Positions 10,610-52,898 of a stretch of DNA of 64,000 bases are shown piece by piece. Source of the DNA: Candidatus Argoarchaeum ethanivorans (lineage in GTDB: Archaea; Halobacteriota; Methanosarcinia; Methanosarcinales; EX4572-44); assembly GCA_004193545.1 (NCBI GenBank), contig RPGO01000030.1, forward strand, positions 1-64,000. The letters are read 5' to 3'. A model generated the notes under the pieces. The model ran no database searches. It was not told the DNA's origin and saw only the letters and a program-made list of their open reading frames with translations. The stretch's first letter is position 1, and every line of letters begins with the position of its first letter. The position numbers were made by a program, and so were the translations under genes.

Positions 10610-10616
10610 TACACTA

Positions 10617-11792: not shown

Positions 11793-11794
11793 TA

Positions 11795-28995: not shown

Positions 28996-29439
28996 ATGAT
29001 AAAGAATTTTTTGATTGCAACCACAGCAAGTGTTGTTGCTGGAGGTATTATCTATAGCCTGGTTGTTTTACTTGTTAATTATTTTGCGCCAATTGTTGCT
29101 GTAATCGCCGGGTTTGTTAGTGGAATAGGGCTTGTGGTTTTGAGCAGATGCAATAAAGAGAATAACAAGGATATTTCAGCAGTTGGTCTATGCTATTTTG
29201 GAGTGGTTGCTGTAATGTCGCTTTTTACTGGATATCTGCTTATTTACTATTTTAAACCAGTGATTATTCATGGTATTATGTGTCATCCAAAAAACTTCAT
29301 CGCATTTCCACAGTTTATTGTAAACACGCTTAAAATCCCAGATATTTTAAGCACAATATTCGGGGGCATTGCAGCATCAGCACTATCACATAAAATAAGA
29401 GCGATTTATGAATATTTTCGCCGTTCTTCGCCTGTATGA
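28996..29439 (+). CDS. Integral membrane protein
   Basis: 147 residues with four hydrophobic segments (~5-30, 33-50, 66-88, 110-130); no family recognised. It points against the surrounding cytochrome genes, and its last 34 bases overlap the end of the tetrahaem cytochrome gene. A TATA-like AATAAATAAG lies ~25 bases before the ATG, so the leader would be very short. Confidence 0.55.
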   Translation: MIKNFLIATTASVVAGGIIYSLVVLLVNYFAPIVAVIAGFVSGIGLVVLSRCNKENNKDISAVGLCYFGVVAVMSLFTGYLLIYYFKPVIIHGIMCHPKNFIAFPQFIVNTLKIPDILSTIFGGIAASALSHKIRAIYEYFRRSSPV

Positions 29440-30173
29440 TTGGACCTGCTTTGGGCGATTGTTATATCTATCGGGACAGTTGAGTGACAACTAATACATG
29501 CCAGATAGCTCTTTGAAGTATAATCACCTGCAAGATTTCCTGGAGTATGGTTGAATGGTTCACCTGCCACAAATCCGGTTGGCTCATTGACCAGACTTAG
29601 ATAGAATGCATTATGAAGATTGCCTGATTCATTCAAAACATTTCCAGCATCAACTGTTGGCAATGTGTCGAATAACTGAGGATCATTGAACGTATAATTT
29701 CTATTTCCATGGCACCAGTCATCATCGCAAGTTCTTACGATAAGTGCATGACTGTGTTTATCTGCCAGTGATGAATTGTGGCAGAGGTGGCAGATTTCAT
29801 TTCCATCGATTTCATTGCTGCCATCTGCATCTAACTTTTCCAATCTTGATTCTGTGTCATTGATCCACGAACTTCCATTCCATGTCCAGATCTTATCTTC
29901 TACTGTGTCAATGGTGCCACCTGATGGATGGTAATCAATACCGCCAATTGCAAGATACGTGGTGTAATTGGTGTTGTTTGCAGCTCTGATGTGTGCATCT
30001 CCTGCTGCTGATGTAGCCCACACCTCACCGTATTCTTCTTCATGGCATTTTTGACAGTTTATCTGATTATAAAAGACGTGCTGCCCACTAAACATTGAAA
30101 ATATGTCAGGCACCACAAACATTGTAAGCGATATTAAGGCAAGCAGTAATAATATAATATTACTACGTTTCAT
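29406..30173 (-). CDS. Small surface multihaem cytochrome (SMFxGQH family)
   Basis: 255 residues. N-terminal helix (~4-24) continuing into FSMFSGQHVFYNQ, a motif also present at 49267. Three CxxCH (CQKCH, CHLCH, CISCH) and one CX4CH (CDDDWCH), thus up to four haems. Contains an EF-hand-like DADGSNEIDGNE run, a possible Ca site. Many Asn-X-Thr/Ser sequons suggest glycosylation outside the cell. Small tetrahaem archaeal cytochromes can polymerise into extracellular nanowires; whether this is one is inference. It overlaps the preceding gene by 11 bases. Confidence 0.8.
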   Translation of the reverse strand: MKRSNIILLLLALISLTMFVVPDIFSMFSGQHVFYNQINCQKCHEEEYGEVWATSAAGDAHIRAANNTNYTTYLAIGGIDYHPSGGTIDTVEDKIWTWNGSSWINDTESRLEKLDADGSNEIDGNEICHLCHNSSLADKHSHALIVRTCDDDWCHGNRNYTFNDPQLFDTLPTVDAGNVLNESGNLHNAFYLSLVNEPTGFVAGEPFNHTPGNLAGDYTSKSYLACISCHSTVPIDITIAQSRSNHTGEERRKYS

Positions 30174-30579
30174 TGAAGAACTCCATGCTATTATTATATA
30201 ATTGAGAATCTGATTTGCCTATTATGTAATGTGCAGACTGGTTTAATCCACTTATACCAGTATAGAGTGTAATATCACCAGTTGTTTCATTATAATTTGA
30301 GTGACAATTGGTACAATAAATCTTCTTGGTAAGATTGTGTACCATATTAACCTGTGGAGTTGTGTTTGGATTGTATCCATGACATAAACAATTCACATCA
30401 CTATGCACACCAGCACTAACATTTGTTACTGATGCGGGATGGCACTTGTTGCAAAACTTCCATGGGTCAGTCTCATTTTTATAGCTGTATAATTCATGGC
30501 TGTTGGAAAACATCGCACCGGCTATGCCTATAATTAACATGACCACAATTACAGCTATAATTACTTTTTTTAACCTCAT
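30163..30579 (-). CDS. Small multihaem cytochrome with an unusual CXCH site
   Basis: 138 residues. N-terminal helix (~5-24), AMFSNSHELYSYK, then CNKCH, a shortened CLCH (in DVNCLCHGY) and CTNCH. The layout (CNKCH...VHSDVNCLCHGYNP...VHN) looks like a NrfH/NapC-type or 'HSDV-C' cytochrome whose middle site lost one residue. Lies six bases after the giant cytochrome gene and overlaps the next one, so all three are one operon. Confidence 0.75.
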   Translation of the reverse strand: MRLKKVIIAVIVVMLIIGIAGAMFSNSHELYSYKNETDPWKFCNKCHPASVTNVSAGVHSDVNCLCHGYNPNTTPQVNMVHNLTKKIYCTNCHSNYNETTGDITLYTGISGLNQSAHYIIGKSDSQLYNNSMEFFNET

Positions 30580-30585
30580 GGTTTT

Positions 30586-33500
30586 TCAATACCAGCTCTG
30601 GATTGTTTTATTGCCTTTGTCCGGATATTCATGGCACCATCTGCATTCATGCTCGGCGCTTGAGTTGAAGTTTGACTTTGCATTTTCATAAGTTGTTGCA
30701 TCATGGCAGGTTGTGCAGTTTGCAATCTCAAGTACGCATGTTCCTCCAACCATGTAAGTTAGCGGGTTACCTGTCACATTATGCCGATCGCTCTCGTTGA
30801 TTAAGTCTAACTGATATGAATGGCAGCACTCGCACCATTTCCATGTGTACTCCTCGAGTGGATGCCAGTTAACAGGCTGATCAGTATGGATATGACATTC
30901 TGTACAGTTTACAGTTGCATGCACGCCATAATTAAACATCGTCTCATTCACATAATATTTACTTGCAGTAGAATCATCCAGCCCGAAATGACAGTTGTCG
31001 CAGTCCTGCTCCCATGATATGGTTGGGATGGTCAGGTTCTGGTCGTGCATCCGTCCTGTGTTGTGGCACTCTGTAATGGTGCAAGATTCTGTTCTGGTTG
31101 CATGCGGAATGTTCTCGGTGTAATTCTGCGAACCAGCACGCTCAAATATCTCGATGAACTCGTTTGTGGAGTTCCTGTGGCACCATGTGCAATCTGACAG
31201 GTTGCTTGCTGTTGCGATGTCAGGACGGCTTCGAGGATAGTGCGATGCCTCTGATAGATTCTGGCGATATGAAGACTGTCCAGCGAGTCCTTCGAACCCA
31301 GAAACTTTCATGGTGGTGAGGTTGTGGCAGCCGTAGCCACAGGACTCTGAGTTCGTCTCCGCGGTGGTGCGCGCAGAGATGTTGATGCCGCTTTTGAAGT
31401 GGTTGTAGACAGCGGTTGCATTACTTACGTTTTGGTATGCATAGGTTCCATTATGACATTCATAACAGAGATACGCATCATTGTTGAAGGTGCCTCTGTG
31501 CCCCTCTTCTGGACACGCTCCCTCTGGTACATGGCAGCCCCAGCACTTGGAGTTGTTCGCGTCACCCACCGTTATTGCAACCGAAGTCATGTTGTCATTC
31601 ACATTTGCATGCACTCCAAAATTCACTGCTGTGACATTAATTTTATACTTCAAGCCCTGCTGATCAGCTCCGTATGTTGCATGGCAGTTGGTGCAGTTCG
31701 CATCAGTTAGTACCCGTTCTAATGTGCCACTGTGGAGCCTACCTACACCATGACATTCATCACACGTCTGGATCTGATAGTGGTTGACCTTTTTCATGGA
31801 TTGCTGCTCTACAAATACAGTCGATAGATTGTCATGACAGTAACCGCAATAAGCTCCCGGGTCATTTTCGATATATGTAGTGACAATATCTGTTCGATTG
31901 TCGCCGTAATGGGATATTAGTGAGAAGTTCGTGAAGTAAGGATCTGTCTCGTTTTCATCGAATGTGTAGCGCATCTCTGACTGGTTGTGGCAGCCCATGC
32001 ATGAGTCTAAATCTGTGGGGCGTGTCCAGTATGCCTCTATGCAGGTTCCACTCTTGAAGTGATTGTGCACTTCGGGTGCATCGCTCACATTACTGAATAA
32101 CGTGGTGTTGTCTTTGTTGTGGCAGTCGTAACAGTTGTAGGCAGGCTCTAGCCGGTTGCTGTGCTCATCCATGCCAACACCTTCTGGGAAATGACAGACC
32201 CAGCACGACTTGTTGATGTCGCCATCGACACTCGCATTGTTCATCCCGGCGTGGATCGCACCCATATATGCAATCTCATCAATCCTGCGCCTTTCTGCAC
32301 TACCGTTACTGCCATGACACCTGAGGCAGTCAGGATCACCAACGATGCTCACCGCGTTTATGTTGTGGAAGTCAACAGGTGTCTGGTTGTGGCTATGGCA
32401 GAAGCAGCAGCCATCCTCAGGATTTGCTTCGTCTGTGAAGTTGCCGTGCTTGTTTGCGGTTGCATTGCCATAGAGAGTTGCGTTGGCTCTTGCGCTTGTT
32501 GTATTATCGTGGCAGTACCCACATTTCGTTGTTGGAGTAAGAAGACTACTCGTTGTACCGTAATGTGAGACACCTGAGAAAATCGTGTGTCCAAGTTCCT
32601 TGTAAGCGGTATCATTGTTATCGGAATTAAAGCTGTTGTTGTGACAGTCCACGCACCGACCATTGTCGCTGTGTTGGTTCGTTTTGACATATGTCGAGTT
32701 TGGATAATGGTCACTTATCAGAGGAGGCAGCCTGTTCAGACCGAGAGCAGGATCGCTTGCACTCTCCCATGTATGCCCATCACCTGTTGCTCCACTCCAT
32801 GCCTCGCTTCGTGCATGGCAGTCCTCGCAGGTGTACGGCAGCTCATCAACTGTTATGATCCCATCCTCATTCCGATCAGTGATCCCGTTTCGATCACCCA
32901 TGCCTTCTGGAATCGTACCGTCGCTCTGATGACAGCCCCAGCATGGGTTTGACCTGTTATCCATCCCATACGTCTCGTGGACGAGGGTGTTGTTCAAGAT
33001 GTTTCCATGAATTCCCATCTTGATTGCAGTGGCATTTACAAGCGACTGGACTCCGTACTTGCTATTCACATCATGGCATAAGGTGCAGTTGGGACCTCCG
33101 CCAGCGTAGATTGATTCGTTGTGGAAGTGTGTAAGTGTGCTCTCTTCAACACTACCGACCCAATCAGGTCTGACATGGCAGTAGGTGTAGCACGTAGAGA
33201 CATTTGTTGTGTCAGCGCCGTACATATTATCGGCGATGTACGTGGCATTGCCCCAGATCGAACCGTTGGTCGAGTCGCAGTGGCAGTATAAGCAGTCTGT
33301 GGTGTTGAATAGTGGATTATCAATTCCAAATGCCAGCCCCTGTGTTTTATTCAGCCCATAGTGCGAGACGTCGCCCATCGTTGATCTGCCTGTATAGGTA
33401 ATAAAACTTTTAGATGGAGTATACTTCCAGACCTTGAGTTCGCCTATGGAACTGTTTGGGAGAACGCTCGGAGCATGGCAGTCGTCACATGAGCCGCCAA

Positions 33501-36500
33501 TTCCGACACTGGTCTGGATGAGTATCGATTCAGCGCCTTTTGTGGTCGGACCATGGTTATCGATCGCGGCAACAAGCCCCTGCGTGTGCGGCGGCTGACC
33601 ATCGTAAGGTCCATGGCACTTTGCACATTTGTATGGATTCAGTGCCCGATCCGGATGGAAATATGGACTTGGCGGTGTTCCGTTGGTGCAGTGACATGCC
33701 CAGCAGATCGCATTGTCTCCGGTGATATTTACGATCTGTGGGGCGGTGTACCCGCGATATTCGAGCCATTCAGTGAAGTTTTTGTCAGTTCCCTGGAGAT
33801 CGCTGCCTGTTCTAAACGCACCGCTCAGATTGGTGTGCATCGCAAGTTTTACCGCGGTCAGGTTCACGATCGGACGGATCGGGTCGGTGTTGTACGCGGA
33901 CGCGTTGTTGTCGTGGCACTCGAGGCAACCCGCACCGCCAGCGGGGGTGTAGTTGACGAATGGCTGGCGGTAGTTGAAGCTGTTTGGGAGTTTAAATCCA
34001 TGACACCCGCCACAGGATGGATTATCAAGACCGCCAGCCTGATTCATCGTTGAATTCGACCAGTTCGCATGATCCAGTATCGTTTGATTTACCCAATCGC
34101 CATCATTATCCGCCCCGCTTGGAAGTGTGAGATTCGTGATGTAGGTATATTTTATCGGTGGGCGTGTCGTTGCCGGATAATCAGAACCATGCGGATTGTG
34201 ACAGGAGTAACAATGATAGTTGGGATGACCGGTCCATCCTGCCTGTCCGCCTTGTGGAGAGTGAATATTCTGTAACATTGGAGTTCCAGTACTACCAAAA
34301 CCCGTCCCCCAATGATAATACTCATCCCGAAAGTTCGTTTGATTCGTGTAATTCTGAAGATGCGAATTAGTCTCGCCCGACATCTTCGCGACGAGTTTCT
34401 CCTCAAGATGACACACAAAGCAGAGTGCATAGTTGGCTGAGTTATAGTTACCTTCTGTGTTAGTCCTGTAATACCTCAGCAAATCAGAATCATACTCCGT
34501 CCCATGATTGTCATGGCATGCCTTGCATGAAAGTTTTCCATCCCCGAGTGGATGATGTGTCGTCTGGTTGAACTCAGTCTCCTGAACAAGCCGTTCCTGT
34601 GTCGCACTCGCGCCGTGGCAGTTAAGACCACCAGTTTTGCCAGTGTAGCATAACTGCGGGCTCTGATTGTACAACAGATCCTTTCCGCTCTCGTTTCCGT
34701 GTGGAATCGCAATGGAATCGTTCTCGTTATGGCAGTCGATGCATTGTCCGGGCGTGTATGGCTCATCGAGGCTATTAAATACCTGTGAGGTGTAGTTCGT
34801 CCAGTGTAGTGTGTCCTTGAACTTGAGCTTATCCAGATGGCAGTAGTAGCACTTGCCGTTCGGTGTGTAGCCTGTGTCAACGAGAATTGTAACCCCGGGT
34901 CCTGTAATCTCGGTCGTGATGTTCCGATATGTGATATTCTTACCCTGTATCTTGTCCCATCTGTTGATTGCAGTGCAGTTCATCGGCTGATAAGTGGTTT
35001 TTCCAGTCACGTTCTCCTTGTACTCGATTATCGGAAGCCAGTTATCGCCTGATGCAGGGGGCCCATAGTAATCGAAATCATTGCTGCTCAACCTGCCGTG
35101 GTTTGAAAGTGGTATCTCATTTTCACCCCAGACCGTCACATTCCCGATATCAGAAAACTCGCCGTACCTGACCGTGAGATTCGCCCAGACAAACTCTATA
35201 TGGTAGTTGTCCCAGCAGAGCACATCGATCCTCCACATCAATGTCAGATTTGAAGTATCCTCATAGCCTACCTCTGTCTTGTTAAATACCGTGTCAAGTG
35301 TTGCGAGTCTGGTGTCGTTTGTAAGGTAGAAGGTGTAATTCGCTGTCACCGACTCGTTGTTTACAATCACACAATAGTTTGAGTCGTTGAGGCGGATGTC
35401 GAACTCTGACGAATTGCGTGTGAGATCGTTTCCGATGATCGTTGCGTTCGTTGAGTGCTCTTCAAGGAGGATGCCTGTAATCGTATAGTTTGTGATGTTG
35501 TTTGCGGTTAAGTTGTGATCCCTTGATTCTGTCAGGAATATCCCTCTCAGTGTTGCATCGATTGTGTTATTCGTGAGGTTTCCCTGGTTTGACTCTGACA
35601 TATAAATCCCGTCCTCACCTCTTATCGTGGTGTTCAGAATTTTGGTATAGTTTGATCCTGAACAGTACACACATGTGTTGTTTGCAGTGAGGTTGGAATC
35701 TGTGAGAGTAATATAATCGGACGTAGATAAATATGCGCTGTGTGATGATGTTGAGGTGATCGTTGTGTTTGTGAGATTGGTGTAATGTGCACCGATGGTG
35801 TATAGTCCATACCGATCTACAGATGAGATCATTGTGTTGGTAATTGTGGTGTAATCTGATGAGGATAGGTACATTGCATTAGAGGTTGTGGCTGCGAAAC
35901 TGCTGTCTGTTATGTTGTTGTGATCCGAATCCTCTTCGAAATGCGCTCCATACAGGTTGCTTGGACTTATCGTATCGAGATCAATGATGCTGTTCTCAGA
36001 TGAGCCGTATAGCCAGATGCCATTGCAGTTATTCGATATGGCGTTGTTTGTCAGGTTATTGTTACTTGAATTCCGTAAAAATATGCCATAACCGGATTTG
36101 ATATTATTCGAAAATTCGCTGTTTCTTATGGTGAGGTTGGTGCAATCGATGAGCGTGATCTTTCCGACATTGCTCACATTGGATGCAAAGAGATACTTAT
36201 TTTCGATGATGTTATCGCCCAGTTCGGTGATCTTGTCGTGCTCATCGTAATAGTAGTTTATTTGTTCGCCGTTTGCTGTGTTGTTTCGCCAGATGTGATT
36301 ATAAAAAGAATTCCTAACATAAGAGACTTTCAGTGCATAATGCCCGCTGAGTGATGATATGGTGTTGTTACTTAAATAATTATAATTTGTATACGCCCCA
36401 ATACCTGTGTTGTTGTTCGATAGTATGGTGTTGTTGGCAATAGTGTTTTGCGTGCTTAGAGAGCTATAATAATATGTACCTATGCAGATGCCGCCATCGC

Positions 36501-38283
36501 CACGGTTCTTTGACACATTATTATGTGTGATGTCGTCATGCCCGGCTCCGTCCAAACAGATACCTCCCTTGGTGTTGTTTGTGATGTTGTTGTAATTGAC
36601 ATGATTGTAACTGCTCGATCCTTCGGAATGAACTCCATAATTGTTGTTATTCAGAATATCGCTGTCGTTTATGATGTTGTTGCTCGAACCAGCAAGATAA
36701 AACCCCTGTTTTGTGTTATTTTCAATGATTACGGATGTGATGTTATTCCAACTCGTCGATTCGAGATTGATGCCGTACACAGTGTTGTTCTCAATCGTGC
36801 TGCTCCTGATGCTCACATTCGATGAAGACCCGATGATCCGGATGCCATCTCCGTTATGTATCGTGCAGCCAGTAAACCACAGATCGCTGCAATCAACGAT
36901 TGTGACATGCCCGATGTCGGCATCAGTGATCGTAACATTACTATCTGTGCAATTGTAGTACACCCGCCCCCCGTTCACTTCGTTTGTTGTGTCGATGTCC
37001 TGATCATAGTTCCCTTTAACATAGAGGTTGTAGTCTGTGCTGTTGATTATATCGTTGGATTTAAGGATGCTGCTATGGGATGAGGTGATATTTATACCAT
37101 ATTCGCTGCTGTCTGTGATTGTATTGCCTGTCAATGTGTTGTTTGTTGAGGATTTGAGGTTCATCCCATCCCTATTGCAGGCAAGGTCGTTAGAAAGCAG
37201 AGTGCTGTTTTCTGAACTCTGCATAAAAATTCCATAATCTCCGCTGTCTGTGACGTTATTCTCTGAAATGTTGCAGTAGTTTGAGTTTTGGATGTAAATG
37301 CCGTGATCTATGACACTGTTGATGGTGCTGTTGATAACGTTTATGTTGTTGGATGAATATGCATGGATGCCATGCTTATTATTGCCTCCTGCAATGCTGA
37401 AATCTCGGAGCGTGTTGTTGAAGGTTGATTCGAGGTGCACGGCATCGTTGGTTGTGATAGAGTACGACCCTCGCGTGATGCTGATATTATTTAATGTGTT
37501 GTTGTTTGAATTCTGGATGTAAATACCGTGATAGTAGCTGCTCTTTTCTGCGATGGTGATGCTTTCGAGGGTGTTGTCGTTCGAGTCATGTATGTGGATA
37601 CCATGCCAGTACCGGACTCTATAGTTATAACTGTGCGATTTGGTGTGCCCCGCCTCTATTGTGCAGTCTCTGATGCTTGCGTTGCTTGCAGAATGGAGAT
37701 AGATTCCATGTGTGGTGGTGGTGACATAAACATAATTCAGTCCATCCCCATGTCTGAATGTGCAGTTGTATATACTGACACTCTCGTTTGTCTCGATACT
37801 GAATCCATTGTTGTGTACACAGCATTCGATAGTAGTGTTCGTGACATTGCCCCGGCTTCCGCTTTCGTATATCCAGCCGTAGTAGTCTGATGTACTGGTA
37901 TCCTTATGGGTGATCTCTGAACCATTGATGTTCATCACGCCGCCATTGTGTACGGTGATCGAATACTTGATGGAAGATGTGCTATCCATCTTCACAGTCG
38001 CATTCTCAATCTCCAGCACAGCGCCGCCATTCACGATAATGTCCCCTGCCACGTTGCTTACGTTGTTGCTAAGATTTGTACTCCACTGAGAATCATTTGT
38101 AGTGGTTACGATGATCTCGCCGTAGTCAACAGCCCCGGCGATTCCGCAGAAGATTATGAGTAAAAAAAAGATAGAAGCACAGCTCATAAAACGCGTCCTA
38201 CATGTTCTACCATCCTGCCATATCCCGGTTATCTGGTGTCGGAACATCATAATTCGTTTCATCAGTACGTGTTGGAAATTCAC
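30586..38283 (-). CDS. Giant extracellular cytochrome: parallel beta-helix fused to a 32-haem domain
   Basis: 2565 residues. Signal peptide ends near AGAVDYGE (~residue 52); the first 32 residues are uncertain, and an ATG at ~residue 33 is a reasonable start. Residues ~60-1000 are a long run of NosD/PbH1-type right-handed beta-helix coils (repeats such as NNTLNNISI, HGIYIQNSN, SSNNIINDS), very rich in Asn, Ser, Thr and N-glycosylation sequons. A beta-domain follows (~1040-1140). From ~1145 to 2556 there are 32 CxxCH motifs, two CX3CH (CYTYCH, CGYGCH), one CX4CH (CTITECH) and one wide CX9CH. No C-terminal anchor is visible. Probably a cell-surface electron conduit; the helix may replace the S-layer domain used in other ANME cytochromes. 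Confidence 0.92.
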   Translation of the reverse strand: MNFQHVLMKRIMMFRHQITGIWQDGRTCRTRFMSCASIFFLLIIFCGIAGAVDYGEIIVTTTNDSQWSTNLSNNVSNVAGDIIVNGGAVLEIENATVKMDSTSSIKYSITVHNGGVMNINGSEITHKDTSTSDYYGWIYESGSRGNVTNTTIECCVHNNGFSIETNESVSIYNCTFRHGDGLNYVYVTTTTHGIYLHSASNASIRDCTIEAGHTKSHSYNYRVRYWHGIHIHDSNDNTLESITIAEKSSYYHGIYIQNSNNNTLNNISITRGSYSITTNDAVHLESTFNNTLRDFSIAGGNNKHGIHAYSSNNINVINSTINSVIDHGIYIQNSNYCNISENNVTDSGDYGIFMQSSENSTLLSNDLACNRDGMNLKSSTNNTLTGNTITDSSEYGINITSSHSSILKSNDIINSTDYNLYVKGNYDQDIDTTNEVNGGRVYYNCTDSNVTITDADIGHVTIVDCSDLWFTGCTIHNGDGIRIIGSSSNVSIRSSTIENNTVYGINLESTSWNNITSVIIENNTKQGFYLAGSSNNIINDSDILNNNNYGVHSEGSSSYNHVNYNNITNNTKGGICLDGAGHDDITHNNVSKNRGDGGICIGTYYYSSLSTQNTIANNTILSNNNTGIGAYTNYNYLSNNTISSLSGHYALKVSYVRNSFYNHIWRNNTANGEQINYYYDEHDKITELGDNIIENKYLFASNVSNVGKITLIDCTNLTIRNSEFSNNIKSGYGIFLRNSSNNNLTNNAISNNCNGIWLYGSSENSIIDLDTISPSNLYGAHFEEDSDHNNITDSSFAATTSNAMYLSSSDYTTITNTMISSVDRYGLYTIGAHYTNLTNTTITSTSSHSAYLSTSDYITLTDSNLTANNTCVYCSGSNYTKILNTTIRGEDGIYMSESNQGNLTNNTIDATLRGIFLTESRDHNLTANNITNYTITGILLEEHSTNATIIGNDLTRNSSEFDIRLNDSNYCVIVNNESVTANYTFYLTNDTRLATLDTVFNKTEVGYEDTSNLTLMWRIDVLCWDNYHIEFVWANLTVRYGEFSDIGNVTVWGENEIPLSNHGRLSSNDFDYYGPPASGDNWLPIIEYKENVTGKTTYQPMNCTAINRWDKIQGKNITYRNITTEITGPGVTILVDTGYTPNGKCYYCHLDKLKFKDTLHWTNYTSQVFNSLDEPYTPGQCIDCHNENDSIAIPHGNESGKDLLYNQSPQLCYTGKTGGLNCHGASATQERLVQETEFNQTTHHPLGDGKLSCKACHDNHGTEYDSDLLRYYRTNTEGNYNSANYALCFVCHLEEKLVAKMSGETNSHLQNYTNQTNFRDEYYHWGTGFGSTGTPMLQNIHSPQGGQAGWTGHPNYHCYSCHNPHGSDYPATTRPPIKYTYITNLTLPSGADNDGDWVNQTILDHANWSNSTMNQAGGLDNPSCGGCHGFKLPNSFNYRQPFVNYTPAGGAGCLECHDNNASAYNTDPIRPIVNLTAVKLAMHTNLSGAFRTGSDLQGTDKNFTEWLEYRGYTAPQIVNITGDNAICWACHCTNGTPPSPYFHPDRALNPYKCAKCHGPYDGQPPHTQGLVAAIDNHGPTTKGAESILIQTSVGIGGSCDDCHAPSVLPNSSIGELKVWKYTPSKSFITYTGRSTMGDVSHYGLNKTQGLAFGIDNPLFNTTDCLYCHCDSTNGSIWGNATYIADNMYGADTTNVSTCYTYCHVRPDWVGSVEESTLTHFHNESIYAGGGPNCTLCHDVNSKYGVQSLVNATAIKMGIHGNILNNTLVHETYGMDNRSNPCWGCHQSDGTIPEGMGDRNGITDRNEDGIITVDELPYTCEDCHARSEAWSGATGDGHTWESASDPALGLNRLPPLISDHYPNSTYVKTNQHSDNGRCVDCHNNSFNSDNNDTAYKELGHTIFSGVSHYGTTSSLLTPTTKCGYCHDNTTSARANATLYGNATANKHGNFTDEANPEDGCCFCHSHNQTPVDFHNINAVSIVGDPDCLRCHGSNGSAERRRIDEIAYMGAIHAGMNNASVDGDINKSCWVCHFPEGVGMDEHSNRLEPAYNCYDCHNKDNTTLFSNVSDAPEVHNHFKSGTCIEAYWTRPTDLDSCMGCHNQSEMRYTFDENETDPYFTNFSLISHYGDNRTDIVTTYIENDPGAYCGYCHDNLSTVFVEQQSMKKVNHYQIQTCDECHGVGRLHSGTLERVLTDANCTNCHATYGADQQGLKYKINVTAVNFGVHANVNDNMTSVAITVGDANNSKCWGCHVPEGACPEEGHRGTFNNDAYLCYECHNGTYAYQNVSNATAVYNHFKSGINISARTTAETNSESCGYGCHNLTTMKVSGFEGLAGQSSYRQNLSEASHYPRSRPDIATASNLSDCTWCHRNSTNEFIEIFERAGSQNYTENIPHATRTESCTITECHNTGRMHDQNLTIPTISWEQDCDNCHFGLDDSTASKYYVNETMFNYGVHATVNCTECHIHTDQPVNWHPLEEYTWKWCECCHSYQLDLINESDRHNVTGNPLTYMVGGTCVLEIANCTTCHDATTYENAKSNFNSSAEHECRWCHEYPDKGNKTIQSWY

Positions 38284-38494: not shown

Positions 38495-39052
38495 TTGTTA
38501 GAACATAACTCTTTTGATACGCAGCAGAATAACACGCATTCAAACCTCGAGCATGCTGTTGAAAATGGCTACTTAAAACCTGTAGACGAAGTGATCGAAT
38601 TACTTAGGGAAGTGATTGATGTACTTGAGGAGATAAATGGTATTGATGCTACAGAAGAATTGTTGTATGATATCGGCAAAAGCAGGGGTAAGTGCATCGG
38701 GAAACTACTTGGAACAGGAAAACACCCAAAAACTGCTATCGAAGAATTTATTGAGCACGTCAAACATTGCTATTCCATAGAAGTTATAGATCAAAAAGAC
38801 ACGGAAAAGAAATATACAGCAAAACTACAGATCAACGAATGCATAATAAAAAAACTATGTGGAGGTTGGAGTGAACCTATGAGAAACCTTCATTGCAGAA
38901 ATATCAATGGATTATTTGAAGGAGCACTATCTTTTATGACTAAGATGAGTGTTACTGCATTACTCAGTGCTGATGAGGATGTATGCCATATTACTATGGT
39001 ATTCAATAATAATAATAATAATAATAATAAGCGGAATCACATCATTCACTAA
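38495..39052 (+). CDS. Hypothetical protein, possibly V4R-like, with poly-Asn tail
   Basis: 185 residues. TTG start with GGGTGA about eight bases upstream; the overlapping ATG just before it meets a stop in seven codons. Residues ~45-170 (DIGKSRGKCIGKLL, ...HCRNINGLFEGALSFMTK...DVCHITMVF) resemble small-molecule-binding V4R/heme-NO-like domains, weakly. Three Cys-containing segments and no membrane helix. The end is eight Asn from an (AAT)8 tract, then KRNHIIH. It is divergent from the giant cytochrome gene, so it could be a sensor or regulator for it; that is speculation. Confidence 0.5.
   Translation: MLEHNSFDTQQNNTHSNLEHAVENGYLKPVDEVIELLREVIDVLEEINGIDATEELLYDIGKSRGKCIGKLLGTGKHPKTAIEEFIEHVKHCYSIEVIDQKDTEKKYTAKLQINECIIKKLCGGWSEPMRNLHCRNINGLFEGALSFMTKMSVTALLSADEDVCHITMVFNNNNNNNNKRNHIIH
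39005..39028 (+). repeat. (AAT)8 microsatellite in the coding sequence
   Basis: Eight AAT units code for eight Asn near the C-terminus of the 38495 gene. Changes by whole units would keep the frame. A shorter Asn tract from the same triplet is at ~46655-46671 in the 2145-residue cytochrome. Confidence 0.9.
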
Positions 39053-39057
39053 ATCAA

Positions 39058-40917
39058 TCATCGTCTTCTCCGCATGAACTTGGATAGGAGTGTAAGAATA
39101 ACTCCTGCAAGCAGCAAAGTACATCCTGCCCATAATACATTTAAAAGTGGATACTTGTTAACTATCAGGTCAACATGTCCTGTTTCGAGTCGACACGGCG
39201 GCATTCCTTTCAGGTCAACTATGGTGGCTGACAGCAAGCTGTACTTTACAGCAGGTCTGCTGACAAAGCAAAACTGACGGTGCTTCATGAATGTTGTAGT
39301 CAGGTTGTTTGTTCTGTCGCCTTCAGTTAGTTCAATGTTAGCGGTTTGAATCCAGTCAGATCCAACTTTGTTAACTTTAAAGTCAAGTAGTTTCACACCA
39401 ACACTTGCATTTTCTTTGTAAACATTTTCTTCGTTCAAAGCAAAACTGAAGTTGTCAACCGTTGATAGAGACATGCTAACGACAGCTCCAAGAAGTGCAA
39501 AACCAAAACCAAGATGGATGATATTAACCCCGGCTCTATGTATAAATACTGCTCTGCTTTTTATCCTCATATCATGGACTATTCTAAACAGAGTATTGCT
39601 TGTAATAAAAAAAAATGCTGGAAGAATAAGTATCAAACGGTTATATTGTACCACAAATATAAGTAAGACATTTATGATAAAAAATATTGCGGTTGTATAG
39701 GCAATTATTTGATTTTTCACTTTTCCATACAACATACAGATACCTGTAAGATACACCAGAAGGATCGTTGGAATATATGACATGGCATTATAAAATTCAG
39801 TAGATACAACAGTCCAGTATCCCATATATTGAAGAACAATACAGATGTTTGGTCCCCAGAACGCTATAAAGGCAAGAACTATCAACAGTAAAATTGTGAA
39901 ATAAAATGTGTTGTGTGGGGCAAGAGCTGCACTCAAAGGTGATGATTCTATAGCGCTTTTTTCACCAAACAGTAAAGCAAGTAATGCTGATATAATTGCC
40001 ACAACAAGGATAAAAATAAGAAGCACTAAAAATGTTGGTGTTTCTAAAAATGTGTGAATTGAATTGTATATGCCACTTCGTGCTACGAAAGTAGTATATA
40101 TGCAGCCTATGAAACTGTATATGCAAAGAAGCGGAAACAGTCTGCGGTACTCACCGACATTGAACCTAATTTCCGCATGCAGTGCTGCTGTTATGAGTAG
40201 CCATGTTGCAAGTGTTACTGATTGGATTGGATCCCACTGCCAGAAGCCTGTCCACCCAAGAAGCCTGTTTGCCCAGATTCCTCCTGAAATCATGCTAATA
40301 CTTAAAAATAACCAAGATAATCGTAGATAGTCTTTAATACGATGTTTTTTGCCAGTTGTAAGATATGCTGCTGAAACTGCTGCCGGAATCAGTGCAAAGG
40401 CGTATGCTGCAAACGCTGTGAAAATATGAATTGGCATCAGTATGTCTATTAGTGCTGGGTTGATGCTGTTTCCGATGGCTGGTATTGATGCACCTTCTCC
40501 AATAAGTATGGATCTAAATGGATTCATTATAATTGTTAGAAAAAGTAAAAAACTGCATGCAGCAAGTGCATAAATGCTATCGTACTGGTTTGTATTTTGT
40601 CTATGTCGCTTGAGATTGATAAATGCGAGCAAAATAGAGAGCCATGCCCATACAAGATACGTTCCATCCTGCCCTACCAGTATGGCTGCGAGTCGGTAAC
40701 CAATCGGAAGCACGTCACTATTAAACATCCAGACATAATATGTGCTAAAATCAAGTGAAACGAATGCATAAGATAATGCTAATACAGATGCTGTAATGGA
40801 GACGGCTGCTATTCCAGCAGACCAGAGACCAATTCTTACTTGTTTGATAATTAAAAATATAACAGCAAGAACTGTGAATATGAAACTGGTGTATAGAAGC
40901 GCTCCACCAATATTCAT
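39058..40917 (-). CDS. ccmF: Cytochrome c haem lyase, CcmF/CcsA superfamily
   Basis: 619-residue polytopic membrane protein. WWD-type haem-handling motif GGIWANRLLGWTGFWQWDPI (~residue 212), with flanking His in helices (HIFTAFAAYAFAL; LHAEIRFNVGEYRR), about 14 membrane segments, and an extracytoplasmic domain before the last helix. Attaches haem to apocytochrome CxxCH sites outside the membrane. Overlaps the 35-haem gene by four bases (ATGA), so the two are made together. Other ccm genes (ccmABCE) are not in the window. Confidence 0.92.
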   Translation of the reverse strand: MNIGGALLYTSFIFTVLAVIFLIIKQVRIGLWSAGIAAVSITASVLALSYAFVSLDFSTYYVWMFNSDVLPIGYRLAAILVGQDGTYLVWAWLSILLAFINLKRHRQNTNQYDSIYALAACSFLLFLTIIMNPFRSILIGEGASIPAIGNSINPALIDILMPIHIFTAFAAYAFALIPAAVSAAYLTTGKKHRIKDYLRLSWLFLSISMISGGIWANRLLGWTGFWQWDPIQSVTLATWLLITAALHAEIRFNVGEYRRLFPLLCIYSFIGCIYTTFVARSGIYNSIHTFLETPTFLVLLIFILVVAIISALLALLFGEKSAIESSPLSAALAPHNTFYFTILLLIVLAFIAFWGPNICIVLQYMGYWTVVSTEFYNAMSYIPTILLVYLTGICMLYGKVKNQIIAYTTAIFFIINVLLIFVVQYNRLILILPAFFFITSNTLFRIVHDMRIKSRAVFIHRAGVNIIHLGFGFALLGAVVSMSLSTVDNFSFALNEENVYKENASVGVKLLDFKVNKVGSDWIQTANIELTEGDRTNNLTTTFMKHRQFCFVSRPAVKYSLLSATIVDLKGMPPCRLETGHVDLIVNKYPLLNVLWAGCTLLLAGVILTLLSKFMRRRR

Positions 40918-46900: not shown

Positions 46901-47351
46901 GCTTGAACCAGTTGAATATTTTTGTTGACAAGCTTGTGGTTTCCGGATAACCGGTCAGGTCTATATCCTGCCATGGTGCACCAGTGGTATCATAGTTATC
47001 AAGATAGTGCCAGCTGTGTGTGCCTTTCTCAGCGTTCCAGCTGTACCCACCGCTTTTTTTTGTTGTACTATCTCTTATCCATGATTGTGGTGAAAGGCCG
47101 CTTACTGGTGTAGTGTTTTCCATAATACTTACTAATACCAGATTTTTCTGCTGCATTCCAATTTCAGTATCCCACCAGTTCCAGCCAGTGGTATCACCAT
47201 TTGAGAGATATCCAAGTTGATAAGGTGTCTGCCCGTAGCCAAGTGTCACTGTATACGTTTCCGCCTTAACAATAACTGTACAAGCACTGAACACTAAAAC
47301 AAGAAAACTGATGATTAATAATAGTGTTCGTCCAGTGCAAGCGTTTTTCAT
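40914..47351 (-). CDS. Giant membrane-anchored 35-haem cytochrome
   Basis: 2145 residues. Signal peptide ~1-31. Residues ~60-300 resemble an immune-inhibitor-A/MAM-like jelly roll (FVKVSVDMGATWDTL, QKVFVAFHFISNNNN, GEWWIDDITVET). Then 35 CxxCH motifs from ~455 to ~2040, preceded by CX4CH (CQARGCH, ~339) and CX3CH (CLTMCH), interrupted by beta-domains (~525-660, 1080-1120, 1260-1480). A second Ig-like domain (~2040-2110) is followed by a C-terminal helix and WRRFR, so the protein is held at the membrane, unlike the 2565-residue one. Operon: signal peptidase, membrane protein, this gene, ccmF, with four-base overlaps. Confidence 0.92.
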   Translation of the reverse strand: MKNACTGRTLLLIISFLVLVFSACTVIVKAETYTVTLGYGQTPYQLGYLSNGDTTGWNWWDTEIGMQQKNLVLVSIMENTTPVSGLSPQSWIRDSTTKKSGGYSWNAEKGTHSWHYLDNYDTTGAPWQDIDLTGYPETTSLSTKIFNWFKRMFIGAETSSDQTINLTFWNQYRMMDSGGFVKVSVDMGATWDTLAEYSGNSSGWTQESINLTQYSGQKVFVAFHFISNNNNNNGEWWIDDITVETSDGNIIFSNGAETRAPKLTATIYYPHYDYAGDHFSTKSETIELSENYIHQIYYGTFTYPNDAYAGRYTIEFSTTIGSEDLSASTSFNTTLWGCQARGCHDSWSPQSDLSVRNPVTAMHPDNITSNIKGSCLTMCHSTYSSQFLRATPIHLHDIKYGHEGGFIYGESGWVTIFNNSNTNVQLYRKSSVGRKIPQTKFNIPSHVTDADCTQCHTSFIHSQSGKDTYDIAVPHSLNGSYLGRSGVHYNVSCEACHGIYYKSEGHGLIYPQFDGVTTLNDTIGDYEPEFMSYEAVTKTYIIDVNSGTINVTVDGDDPLYEIFLTLVGPVDDVNGLQDLNTGDKWQGTYTVPSVNGTAVFAEGSKICYPVGDKLHTTSFNAVPKSGTWIAKIFSRSPGMFNYTITSNHSIQSKPIIHIPWNCSECHNPGASGDLSGAKTSKPIPSWDNNGLSHTHADTNDDGMDDVTCRLCHNSFHDISIRNCTDCHTQRPGGHAVADYYEMEYTGCMLCHNDPHVEPEAAAGGDCTDCHLEGGANVTSGIPIINKTGFFGSIHRNITGQFSQTNYTSISRVCWGCHVNYTQQLIDSSHTKRVTDLPACEDCHDTGTPLNSEYLNQTPLQVREHQPNGEDIQTDSNCTICHNKSLTIAPPTENVKYPRAKNYISHYGRQRTDMWVVENNQVITNCSYCHTGGGREFYCVFVDPSNADITHGTNCTSCHGSGRIHDKSLEVPIMSKDNEACLVCHSNKTEFEGAEFRTSAHANIFCVDCHTPRQVFKDIIVNRESYTYNFSMVSNITCLNATLDWNGSSILNLTLYAPDTNYTGTRINISSPQLGNWTAIVCDVSGDTEFTLTIDVDMKHGEEYKAKICEECHISGFADTPIVYKHIPDQSSVPTNASCALCHAQGAHHATTIEISASHYLKKESLETRDCIRCHTGIVDGWGNAPDQGDHVHYTTINKTLVANQQWKLVDNYSLTLIETTRDAAIFKFEKDEEILREELIVKGDVFKYEVCGIAPGKTTIVNLTVNRLFTAKDRYVAELSGTILASRIHRETENKACWGCHDSQYRANAPEGTDYYVLKKDIENVTLARMPVNLTDNETIMLDIGESLNLTCGYILYVADVNIKRGGAKLRLYKNETLVDDVIINEGCYFTYEERLLDRKIDVIRVKLDRVFIGAAPSIVLSNIRVIAGKQKTLSATTQVLQSGIPLKYLPLDSYITVGEKPETFHVYTLTPGGYSSDCISCHSGDGVAPIKIDIDQFKRGVHAGLNKDADYFSFITDDANKACWACHGNGSSGEPVRHPTPYFGNCTPQTCIHCHGHSKFGAKQVYTHYQGAEISTTSACWDCHSNMLLEDKHTQASASHYSTREDLLNTSDCSVCHNNETNAPEWGSAPQVIKHNSNNTCTRCHAGEGLTNFHKPGITITRECKDCHVNKERCEELNLTVIRTHYPGAPEDSADTLKNYNYTCEMCHNATNTTLHESLEVVRGNQTMGYCFQCHSIEGEFSHKPEAQIKIFRHGRGIKVKSGCEACHDPKGVSIFHAPSMVGKTGIIGARNFALDCIECHEEHEGREYQPFEGIRCIDCHTEYGASHYSTAEIEIVNRTETCGLCHNPEADLYHNLTHIEANVSEEALRPCYVCHGEEIDLFNETQQKAVGITRGTMATIGNVSDEPLRTCSSCHNATGESRFHFDTYSRGTVQNPDWKDWTPGNITGCKDCHTYHGGCSPFNATNMGTEGRSPKGTAHGFAPNCTICHGGEDPISFHSLAATEFLPRVVVTLEPNTVAIGEVSVLRVTVVLPPLMKIVRAEYFIDILGIKGKGKHLKYIIGENGESSAVVGDTINTSMMSYGEHFIFVRVKDSAGHWSKTGIGVLKVVKPRKLVITEFILKICIPAVIIIFGLLYFAWRRFR

Positions 47352-48406
47352 CTTTTCCCACGTCTCAATTTGCTACCTACAATGTACGATGCGACAAGCA
47401 AAATACCTGTTAGTACCAGATAGTCAGGTGAATATGCAGGCATCCATTTTAGATTGTATTTTATATTAATCATTTGTAAGACTAATAATAATCCAAAAAC
47501 GAGTGAACTTATAATTAAAGATGTCGAAATTGAGTGACGCTTTCGAGTAAACTTTTCTTTTAGTATCGTCAGGTGTGCTATTCCTTTATTTTCTTTTGGA
47601 ATTTTATTTGTCAGTTTATTTAAATCAAATGGTAAGCATCCCTCGATAATATACTTGCTCCATGTAAAATATGCAGTTGCATACACTACAAGCCCAAGGG
47701 TCATGCTGCCTATGAGTGTTCCGCCCCCATAGACTACCTCAAATAGAATCGTTGTGATTGGGATAGTCAGTATCGGGATAAATGCCCAAACCCATGCAGA
47801 TGACCGCTGCCAGAGGTTGTAATCGTATGTGATTTCAAGCCACCAGACGATGTACAGCATTGTTATCAAGTACGGTGTGTAAGCACGTGTAAAACTCAAA
47901 AGGAATAAAAATACTGCAAGAGTGGCATTGATTAACAAAACCAATCGAAGAAAACGCGATACTTCCGAAGCAATATCAATGCCGTAGGCTGATCCGTCCC
48001 CTTGAATTGTGAGAGTTACAGAACGCTTTCCGAGTCGATCGATATTGGTATTCATACTGTTCATCCGCTCTTCAATTTTATCAATCATCACCTGGGTGCC
48101 TGCAATTTCTTTGAGGATTGGTTCAAGTCGTGTATAGATTCCATTTTCAAACCCAACATCAATCAGTTGCTCAAGTGCGATTGTTTTTCTTACAAGATTG
48201 ATCCCACCACACAATGTAGCCACTCCAAGCAGTATGATTGTTAGATTTATAATAACCTCTCTTTGCTCAAACTCTTCTCCAGACAACAGATCAATTACTG
48301 GCTGATAGGACAGGTATACAAGGTAAATTCCAGCAATAACTATGCAGATAGCACCAAATTTTCCAAATAGTGAAATACCAGTTTTTCCGCTCATTTCAAT
48401 CAACAA
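47348..48406 (-). CDS. Polytopic membrane protein in the cytochrome operon
   Basis: 352 residues, family not recognised. Two N-terminal helices (~10-32, 50-70), a coiled-coil-like stretch (~85-125: IKEIAGTQVMIDKIEERMNS), then six or so helices (~150-345). The stop overlaps the start of the 35-haem cytochrome (ATGA). An ATG four codons in (48394) is an alternative start. It could be an assembly or export factor for the giant cytochrome, or a quinone-side module; no cofactor motif is seen. Confidence 0.6.
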   Translation of the reverse strand: MLIEMSGKTGISLFGKFGAICIVIAGIYLVYLSYQPVIDLLSGEEFEQREVIINLTIILLGVATLCGGINLVRKTIALEQLIDVGFENGIYTRLEPILKEIAGTQVMIDKIEERMNSMNTNIDRLGKRSVTLTIQGDGSAYGIDIASEVSRFLRLVLLINATLAVFLFLLSFTRAYTPYLITMLYIVWWLEITYDYNLWQRSSAWVWAFIPILTIPITTILFEVVYGGGTLIGSMTLGLVVYATAYFTWSKYIIEGCLPFDLNKLTNKIPKENKGIAHLTILKEKFTRKRHSISTSLIISSLVFGLLLVLQMINIKYNLKWMPAYSPDYLVLTGILLVASYIVGSKLRRGKR

Positions 48407-49266: not shown

Positions 49267-49938
49267 TTAATCCATCACAAGTGTTGTATTCGTGGTGACA
49301 CCAATATCCCATGTCTCAGTCGTTGTGTTTATACTTGCATTGATATCAAGCCCGCCGAACTTGTACCATGTGATATTGATATTGGTCATAGTATGGCATC
49401 CGATACATGCGGAACTGTCGGTTGCAGCACCTTCGGATTGATTGTAGAAATCACTGTGTGCAGAACTAGAACTTCTTAACTGTACTGTTGCATTGTAATG
49501 ACAGTCTCCACAATCTACCTTTATTGCGGCATGGGGGGTGGCCTGACTTCGCCATGTTCCATTGAAAGCAGTTGAGTAACTTGTATTGCTCAAACCTTCT
49601 TGTGTGAAATCCTCAAAGTTATAGCCTGTCAACGATGTAATATTCAAGCCATAATCAGTCTCAAGTATTGTTTCATTAATCTGATGACAGATACTGCACC
49701 CTGAAGTGCCTGAGTAATTCACAGCAAAAGTTGCATGTGCACCACCACGAGCTAAATTTGCATTCCACTCATCAACCTCTGGCTGATGACACTTTGCACA
49801 TAAATCTACCATATCATCCGGGTTCTTAACACTATACCATGTGTGCTGCCCTACAAACATTGACATGGTTGAAGGCAGTACAAAAAGTCCAATAGCTAAA
49901 ATGCTACAAGACAACAACAATATATATTTACCTTTCAT
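49267..49938 (-). CDS. Small surface tetrahaem cytochrome (SMFxGQH family)
   Basis: 223 residues. N-terminal helix (~5-25) followed by SMFVGQHTWYSVK, the motif shared with the 29406 protein. Four CxxCH: CAKCH, CSICH, CGDCH, CIGCH. Ends in a Thr/Asn-rich beta tail (NTTTETWDIGVTTNTTLVMD). First gene of the unit that leads to the signal peptidase, giant cytochrome and ccmF. Size, haem count and coupling to a haem lyase recall the archaeal tetrahaem subunits that form extracellular cytochrome nanowires; membership needs a structure or search. Confidence 0.85.
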   Translation of the reverse strand: MKGKYILLLSCSILAIGLFVLPSTMSMFVGQHTWYSVKNPDDMVDLCAKCHQPEVDEWNANLARGGAHATFAVNYSGTSGCSICHQINETILETDYGLNITSLTGYNFEDFTQEGLSNTSYSTAFNGTWRSQATPHAAIKVDCGDCHYNATVQLRSSSSAHSDFYNQSEGAATDSSACIGCHTMTNINITWYKFGGLDINASINTTTETWDIGVTTNTTLVMD

Positions 49939-50469: not shown

Positions 50470-51604
50470 ATGGATAATAAACCGTATCATGTGAACAAGG
50501 GATTGATTCTCCTGGCAGATAACCATTTTGAACTTGTTAACCCAATTTGTCCTATTTGTGGTTCTTATTGTGTGATTCGGCAGGAATTTCAGGAGCGAAA
50601 TCCGATACTGGGTGAGTTTGGATCTTGTGAGATTTATATGAGGCGTTATTTGTGTAAAAAATGCCACAGAAAGTTTGTAACACAGTTAAACCTGGTTGTA
50701 TAGCCGAATCATCGATATGCATCGATATTCAAGGAGAAAATAGATGGTTTAGTCAAAACAGGCTACCGTTCCTTGCGAAAACTGGGTGAGGATCTCCATA
50801 CGTTCTTCGGAATCTCGCCCTCTCACCAATCGATAACCTTCACACCAATCGATAAAGAACTGGCTAAGAATCGGGGATGAAAAGAGAATCAATAACCATA
50901 TACCAGATTATTCTGGATATTACTGCTATGATGAGCAATATATCAAGATTGATGGTAGAAAAAGCTATCGTCTGACATTATTTGACGCTTTATTGAATAT
51001 CCCAATCGCTGAAGAGATAGCCAAGAAAATAGATTACACGACAGTTTACAACTTTTTAAAATCAGTACTTGCAGATAAACCGCTTATTACAATAACAACG
51101 GATCACAAGAGGATGTACAATAGCATAATCGAGAAACTGGGAGCTTTACATCAATTATGCATATTCCACCTATTCAAAATGATAGGAAAGGAAATGATAG
51201 GAGAAGATGTATACGACCGTTTAAAGTCCAAAACTATCCCATATCGAGATAAAATCAAATTATGCATATACTTCACTAAAATCAAGGAAATATTCAGGAC
51301 ATACGACCTTAATGTTGCAATAAATAGATTAAATAAATTATTAGATAAATATGACGATATTTCACGCGTTTTACAAAAGTGGATACGAAAAAAGATCATC
51401 CCTGACTTTGAACGACTTAATATCTTCATGAGAGATGGGTCAATCCCCAAAACGAATAATCAAGTTGAAAATTACTACCGACAGACCGATCCCAACCAAA
51501 TAAAAAGGAAATACAAGACATATCAAGGAATACTCGCCTTTCTAACAAGAAAAATGGAATACTGGACATCAAAACATGGGAAGATACAACACCCAACAAG
51601 TTGA
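50470..51604 (+). pseudogene. MULE/IS256-like DDE transposase, several breaks
   Basis: N-terminal piece with two zinc-type Cys pairs (CPICGSYC, CKKCHRKF), a stop at 50701, then GYRSLRKLGEDLHTFFGISP, a frame change near 50870, YDEQYIKIDGRKSYRLTLFD (first Asp), and from 50993 an open part with ITTDHKRMYNSII (second Asp), LHQLCIFHLFK (C..H) and TNNQVENYYRQ (Glu). This order is that of MULE-type transposases. At least one stop and one frameshift make it a pseudogene. Confidence 0.7.
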
Positions 51605-51958: not shown

Positions 51959-52898
51959 CTACGCCCAATTTAATAGCATGTTATAAAATGTAAACTTCAT
52001 AATAACTTCTTTGAACATACCAGAGTTACTACTCGCTCGTACCGATTCACCAAAGATTCGTTTTACAGAAGAGTAGGTGCCCTCAACTACCCATCGCATT
52101 CCGTAATCATATTTCTTTTTCCATTCATCGTAGCCAAGTTTCTTTCGTTCTCGTACACATTTCGCCCTATAAGGTGAACCCTTTGCTTTGGTACTTGCAT
52201 CTTTTCTCGTTTTGATCCCTGATTCTATGCCCTTTTTATGCAAGAAACTGAAGTTGCCTTTAGTATCGTAGGCCCCATCACCTAAAGCCCGCTTTATTTT
52301 ATCATAACCTATGGTTTCTTCAGATACTTCAATTAAATCTTCAAATTTATCCCCGTCACTGGTCTGTTCGTCAGTGACCTCTATAGCAACAATTTCCTTT
52401 GTGTTTACATTAACCGCTATATGAGCCTTAATCCAACCTCTATGGATTCTCCATTTTTCTCGCATCCATTCTCCTCTGTTTGTAACCTTTACTCCAGAAC
52501 TATCTACTGCAATGATAATATCTTCGTCCTTATTCTTTATCGTATCACTAAGCTCCAGCTCCAATTTTTCAATCCGTTTGAATAACGTCGTATAATCTGC
52601 GGCGCTCTAGCTTTGGGATCATTTCGGATAATTTACGACTGAATCATTCCATATGTCGATAAGGCATGGCAAATATAATATGAATAAATGCCATCCACAA
52701 TATGAACTGTTTAGGATACTGGAAGGGTGCTCCACGTTTGTTTTTATTCATTTTTGCTATCTCAAGATCCCAGTTCTCGACGAATTCTAAAGAAAGATAC
52801 AATTCACCTCTTTGAACCAATCTTTCATTGTATTCCTTCCAGTTTCTGTTATCTTTGTATTTCTTGCCCCATCTTTTCTTTTCCCATCGTTTTGACAT
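51959..52898 (-). pseudogene. IS5-family transposase, frameshifted
   Basis: N-terminal part 52898-52644 (SLEFVENWDLEIAKMNKNKR, PFQYPKQFILWMAFIHI) runs into an in-frame TGA; the following ~80 bases need a frame change to continue as YTTLFKRIEKLELELSD into the second part (52564-51959), which has DEDIIIAVDSSGVKV (Asp), LGDGAYDTKGNF (Asp) and RWVVEGTYSSVKRIFG (Glu), the IS5 DDE set. Flanks carry related TGAATAA-TA sequences (~51913 and ~52911), perhaps the ends. Not functional as written. Confidence 0.8.

Follow-up and report, generated by a model that had tools for sequence, protein, structure and literature searches.

The window analysed here, a stretch of 64,000 nucleotides from a contig of Candidatus Argoarchaeum ethanivorans (RPGO01000030.1), contains a region that corresponds to the MHC-B/CcmF2 cluster described by Chadwick et al. 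(PMC9012536), with genes for two small proteins, s138 and s255, downstream. The genes and features of this region are as follows.

29406-30173 (-): small multihaem protein s255, distantly related to the nanowire subunit of A. veneficus (8E5G)
30163-30579 (-): small trihaem protein s138, a few bases downstream of MHC-C
30379-30390 (-): CLCH (C-x-CH) site of s138, from a homologue alignment and a pattern search
30586-38283 (-): MHC-C ORF, 2565 aa, GTG start; beta-helix/multihaem protein, ANME MHC type C orthologue
30625-34851 (-): 36-haem domain of MHC-C, residues 1145-2553, from motif count, Pfam and orthologue alignment
31063-31083 (-): odd haem site C2401-x4-CH, kept in all orthologues
31324-31341 (-): odd haem site C2315-x3-CH, CG[YFH]GCH in all orthologues
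33175-33192 (-): odd haem site C1698-x3-CH, CYTYCH in all orthologues
34615-34650 (-): odd haem site C1212-x9-CH, the spacing being x8 or x9 among orthologues
34852-35370 (-): linker domain, residues 972-1144, without haem, conserved among orthologues
35371-38130 (-): right-handed parallel beta-helix, residues 52-971, from Pfam, AlphaFold2, Foldseek and repeat period
38131-38250 (-): N-terminal signal region, residues 12-51, from hydropathy and the ORF start of a close relative
39058-40917 (-): CcmF-type haem lyase in the CcmF2 position, adjoining MHC-B, from a domain search and the cluster in PMC9012536
40914-47351 (-): ANME MHC type B (MHC-B), from domain searches, motif count and hydropathy
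47348-48406 (-): multi-pass membrane protein, at the place that the '8x TMH' gene occupies in the MHC-B cluster (cf. PMC9012536)
48422-49195 (-): archaeal signal peptidase I, TIGR02228 above cut-off
49267-49938 (-): tetrahaem cytochrome, A. veneficus nanowire relative (8E5G, E 8.9e-14)

The MHC-B of the window has a MAM/choice-of-anchor-J-like N-terminus, 35 CxxCH motifs plus two odd sites, an S-layer domain and a C-terminal transmembrane (TM) helix. MHC-C and MHC-B are clustered both in the window and in L034, the locus of a close relative with the same gene order; two ANME-2a/b-like loci (L093 and L043) have the same genes rearranged, with MHC-C and MHC-B clustered together with the signal peptidase and TM genes. 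In ANME-2c-like loci MHC-C is solitary, and neither s138 nor MHC-B adjoins it. Between CcmF2 and MHC-C, a 185-aa ORF without Pfam match lies on the opposite strand (38495-39052, +), and L034 also has an opposite-strand ORF at this place. Two transposase-like ORFs (50993-51604 and 51959-52564) were found just upstream of the tetrahaem/MHC-B cluster. Elsewhere in the window (10611-12956), a 1178-bp unit that contains transposase-like ORFs (143 and 126 aa) is tandemly duplicated, the copies being 99.2% identical with 9 differences.

Translation of MHC-C probably starts not at the GTG but at the ATG at residue 12 (38250), giving a protein of 2554 aa, since the ORF of L034 starts at the matching MMFRHQ. 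By hydropathy, the hydrophobic stretch covers residues 28-60, and the signal is likely cleaved near AGA/VDYG. Besides this signal, no TM helix was detected in MHC-C by hydropathy; a C-terminal TM helix was seen neither in the window protein nor in five orthologues, whereas MHC-B has one. Likewise, Pfam returned no S-layer family for MHC-C, while the identical search recovered the S-layer domain in the neighbouring MHC-B. By the description of Chadwick et al. (2022; PMC9012536), multihaem cytochromes of ANME MHC type C are large and have an N-terminal pectin-lyase-like (beta-helix) domain, proposed to serve partner recognition, but neither an S-layer domain nor a C-terminal membrane helix. The published features of type C, namely the beta-helix N-terminus and the lack of an S-layer domain and of a C-terminal TM helix, are all present in MHC-C, and its 36 conserved sites lie within the published range of 20-80 haem sites. 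The best explanation is that the window gene is the type C orthologue of GoM-Arc1, archaea of the ethane-oxidising type, and that its product is a surface cytochrome that is secreted and has many N-glycosylation sequons. The architecture is known already, the window protein being a further member of the class; an earlier note on this DNA, which held that large ANME cytochromes mostly carry S-layer-type domains, was partly right but overlooked type C.

Orthologues of MHC-C are present in public ANME-2 contigs, including HR1 and E20ANME2, and the order helix-linker-haem is intact in seven separate assemblies (the window, L034, L035, L036, L038, L040 and L093). Of the 186 genomes of the order, 18, with the source genome of the window among them, matched a 400-aa junction query strongly (E < 1e-150); a further 11 genomes among the matches listed showed weak matches only, to either the helix or the haem part. 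The 18 junction-positive genomes belong to the GoM-Arc1 family, the families of ANME-2 contigs (HR1 and CSMAG_887; E20ANME2 and HMMV-459B1), family f5 with two genomes of one genus, which we infer to be ANME-3, and family f4 with one genome, which we take for Methanoperedenaceae because of strong narG-like matches there. With dN/dS values of 0.14-0.31, the beta-helix and the haem domain are both under purifying selection, the beta-helix being the less conserved.

Several related loci depart from this layout. In ex4572_44 (L041:9218-16494), MHC-C is split by a frameshift inside the beta-helix into 674 + 1759 aa, through either sequencing error or decay. Ca. Ethanoperedens GB37 has a tandem cluster (L053:7035-16994 and L036:10001-25181) with a 2458-aa MHC-C, a 2578-aa MG2-domain cytochrome, a 3320-aa beta-helix/DUF2341 cytochrome with 40 CxxCH and a 102-aa C-terminal remnant. 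This cluster holds two copies of MHC-C; L036:17448-25181 was rejected as a copy on account of its MG2 domains and the lack of a Pfam beta-helix match. Finally, a ~5000-aa open frame in the source genome (G000:C6:43381-47850, L058) has beta-helix stretches that match the MHC-C rod, no CxxCH in the part examined, and RHS/YD-repeat-like sequence downstream (YEYDDMNRL, YTYDGMGNRL).

The beta-helix of about 1000 residues that the earlier note had read from the sequence was recovered by both Pfam and structure prediction. Over the first ~950 residues, Pfam returned Beta_helix (E 9.7e-61) and NosD (E 6.2e-46), although MHC-C scored only 65 bits, far below the curated cut-off of 300, for TIGR04247, the NosD copper-binding maturation protein. 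AlphaFold2, run with 11 orthologous sequences as input, gave a mean pLDDT of 78.5 for residues 52-1151 and of about 90 across residues 52-971, where the predicted rod consists nearly entirely of short beta strands after an N-terminal cap helix. The sequence repeats with a period of 23/47 aa, and the strand autocorrelation peaks at 23. Assuming 0.48 nm per coil, we estimate that the predicted rod has about 38-40 coils and a length of 18-19 nm; the proposed length of tens of nanometres is matched at its low end. The helix carries about 55 N-glycosylation sequons and is free of haem motifs. The best solved matches in Foldseek were right-handed beta-helices, namely alginate epimerases/lyases, tailspikes and the surface adhesin PfbA, with low TM-scores that we attribute to the much greater length of the MHC-C query relative to the targets. 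The fold makes polysaccharide binding by the helix plausible, and the helix may bind a partner or a surface. Helix identity between genera is 41-65%. Large indels among orthologues often, though not always, correspond to whole coils (23-24, 48 or 72-73 residues), and about 690 helix residues are aligned in ANME-2 versus 926 in the window protein. The linker of ~170 residues that follows is 64-83% identical between orthologues and was mostly left unmodelled by AlphaFold2.

Downstream of residue 1144 we counted 32 CxxCH motifs (shuffled haem domain: mean 0.27, maximum 3), and in addition four odd Cys-His sites, the same counts as in the earlier note. None of the four odd sites is missing from any orthologue whose sequence reaches it. 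Complete haem domains of orthologues have exactly 36 Cys-His sites each, the one exception being L036a with 38, one of which falls outside the haem domain. The haem part is built from repeats of about 215-240 aa, and Pfam assigned MtrC/MtrF domains II/IV and cytochrome c7 to it. Membership of TIGR03508 (DmsE-type decahaem cytochrome) was not supported (46.3 bits versus a curated cut-off of 192.2), and a haem-domain profile matched no solved cytochrome among the solved structures searched. Within residues 1366-2565, which hold 30 haem sites, 27 of the 35 non-motif histidines are conserved in at least 90% of the orthologues; this would provide roughly one axial partner per haem and fits bis-His ligation. 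Because the four odd sites are conserved, 36 Cys-His sites recur and the conserved histidines nearly match in number, 36 is the best haem count, and haem would be attached at every site. Sequons are enriched in the haem domain (68 versus 21.6 when shuffled). A continuous haem wire is an assumption, since the haem domain could not be modelled (AlphaFold2 without haem, residues 1366-2565: pLDDT 29).

Immediately downstream of MHC-C, s138 has an N-terminal hydrophobic helix, by which it is predicted to be membrane-anchored, and then the motifs CxxCH - CxCH - CxxCH. All nine aligned homologues (Methanosarcinales, Methanocellales and Hydrothermarchaeum) share the CxCH motif, which is thus invariant among them, and searched as a pattern it was retrieved in 27 of 30 regions (homologues L099-L128); in the remaining three the pattern picked up an apparently different cytochrome. 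Within MHC-C itself, the site at 1424-1428 varies between CxxCH, CxCH (L034, L043) and CxxxCH (L035, L037), and in L036a the site at 1959 reads CxCH. CxCH is not unheard of, as one haem-motif pipeline counts CXCH as a haem motif (PMC11218250), the only literature on the motif that we found. Its invariance in s138 and its replacement of CxxCH at sites of MHC-C appear to be new. The conserved odd spacings, CxCH included, bear on the substrates handled by the specialised CcmF haem lyase that adjoins these genes.

The gene for s138 directly follows MHC-C or another large cytochrome in Argoarchaeum-like, ANME-2a/b-like, Methanocellales and Hydrothermarchaeum loci, with a gap of about 10-30 bases. 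Relatives of the C-terminal haem part of MHC-C in Methanocellales include proteins of 605 and 614 aa with 16 CxxCH (L049 and L051; also L050), and Hydrothermarchaeum has one of 2035 aa (L052); no Pfam beta-helix was found in the two Methanocellales/Hydrothermarchaeum relatives that were scanned. Gene order points to s138 as the membrane dock of MHC-C, since its pairing with the C-terminal haem part recurs, and since this end of MHC-C is lost in genomes with fusions (see below), where s138 lies elsewhere. The arrangement of an anchorless MHC-C with a predicted membrane-anchored trihaem protein just downstream, which recurs beside cytochromes free of a beta-helix, appears not to have been described before.

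In two ANME-3-like genomes (G184 and G179) and one Methanoperedenaceae-like genome (G044), MHC-C is fused in frame to MHC-B, again apparently a new observation. The resulting proteins of 3130 and 3132 aa (L091 and L096; G184/G179 94.6% identical to each other) and 3346 aa (L092) start with the beta-helix and linker, continue with MHC-C repeats to about residue 2190-2200, and switch to MHC-B from about its residue 751-925. They end in the C-terminal TM helix of MHC-B and adjoin CcmF2; Pfam detected the S-layer domain in L091, while in L092 it is sub-threshold in a region aligning to MHC-B at about 50%. The fusions lack MHC-C's C-terminal end and MHC-B's N-terminal end, as though a docking surface had given way to a covalent joint. 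Conceivably, the joint reflects mere recombination, since it falls between homologous haem repeats. Fusion and gene order suggest, though they do not prove, physical contact of MHC-C with MHC-B and s138. As the fusion is to the S-layer and membrane-anchored half of MHC-B, the helix would be located at the outer end, farthest from the membrane. The Methanoperedenaceae are a mostly non-syntrophic family, and since one fusion sits in a genome of this type, a partner-specific role is not required.

Taking these findings together, we give a probability of about 60% to the reading that MHC-C is a surface cytochrome with its C-terminal 36-haem wire proximal to the cell and its ~18 nm haem-free helix outermost, as an adhesive or reach arm. 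Electrons would probably enter from membrane-side cytochromes, for which the TM-anchored s138 and the MHC-B crossing the S-layer are candidates, pass along the bis-His haem chain in the N-terminal direction, and be handed over to nanowire-type cytochromes or a partner bacterium, while the helix would hold the outer end of the wire on glycan, matrix or the cell wall of a partner. The direction of electron flow, the target of the helix and the docking with s138 and MHC-B are inferred. Of the earlier proposal that the helix carries haems through or beyond the S-layer, 'beyond' agrees with this reading, whereas 'through' is less likely, because the rod is haem-free and the fusions place the helix farthest from the membrane. 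More tentatively, MHC-B and MHC-C could form one composite electron cable, in which MHC-B would span the S-layer, MHC-C would prolong the cable outward, and the helix would dock on the partner surface as a variable tip. Depending on the lineage, anchoring might then be achieved by non-covalent docking on the membrane trihaem protein with its unusual CxCH, or by covalent fusion to MHC-B.

Two other roles are each somewhat less probable than such a cable. Without binding anything specifically, the helix could serve as a passive spacer or rigid stalk, holding the wire upright or packing it into the matrix. Its variable length, often by whole coils, and the absence of a catalytic motif would suit this role, but most relatives of its fold are adhesive or act on carbohydrates, the observed identity between genera is more than a purely passive rod would require, and at the outer end of the fusion proteins there is nothing for it to hold up. 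On an equal footing, MHC-C could be a cell-free secreted matrix cytochrome, OmcZ-like in role, whose helix binds polysaccharide and whose haem domain makes the matrix conductive. Whereas the lack of both a C-terminal TM helix and an S-layer domain, the numerous sequons and the solitary MHC-C genes of ANME-2c-like genomes speak for a free protein, three genomes fuse it in frame to a membrane-anchored S-layer cytochrome, and elsewhere it is recurrently paired with a TM-anchored trihaem protein. That the helix is an enzyme acting on polysaccharide (epimerase or lyase) with a redox domain attached is very improbable: alginate C5-epimerases are indeed its nearest solved folds and its nearest sequence match, but the aligned segment spans only about 125 residues, and the AlgG-type DPHD catalytic motif is absent from the window protein and all orthologues examined. 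An assembly chimera of two genes, the caveat raised at the outset, is refuted, because the homology search found both parts joined in seven uninterrupted orthologues from separate assemblies, and because sequence identity across the junction, over up to 400 aa, amounts to 59-79% in 17 further genomes of the order.

How electrons are exported through a protein S-layer to a partner is a central open question for syntrophic anaerobic alkane-oxidising archaea. The natural fusions provide a polarity, with the rod outward and the membrane anchor opposite, and name MHC-B and s138 as candidate interaction partners. This polarity, the probable anchor, a count of 36 haems and the sites with CxCH are what our analysis adds to the published class.

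Compared with type C in PMC9012536, where GoM-Arc1 is not specifically treated, the 36-site count, the support for bis-His ligation, the pairing with s138 and the coil-sized length variation are new. ANME MHC type B and the ANME-3 HMMV2 hybrid, a single polypeptide with MHC-B and MHC-C features (PMC9012536), share the haem repeats and the CcmF2 neighbourhood with MHC-C; however, the hybrids found here are reversed relative to that wording, with MHC-C N-terminal and MHC-B C-terminal, and extend beyond ANME-3 to a Methanoperedenaceae-like genome. The same study also reported a protein of ANME-2c that has 86 haems and combines S-layer with pectin-lyase-like domains. The alginate C5-epimerases AlgG/AlgE4 and phage tailspikes have the same right-handed parallel beta-helix fold, but the helix of MHC-C is much longer, fused to haem and without the epimerase motif. 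The A. veneficus extracellular cytochrome nanowire (AvECN; 8E5G) has its relatives in the neighbouring genes at 49267-49938 and 29406-30173, whereas the haem domain of MHC-C itself does not match the solved subunit.
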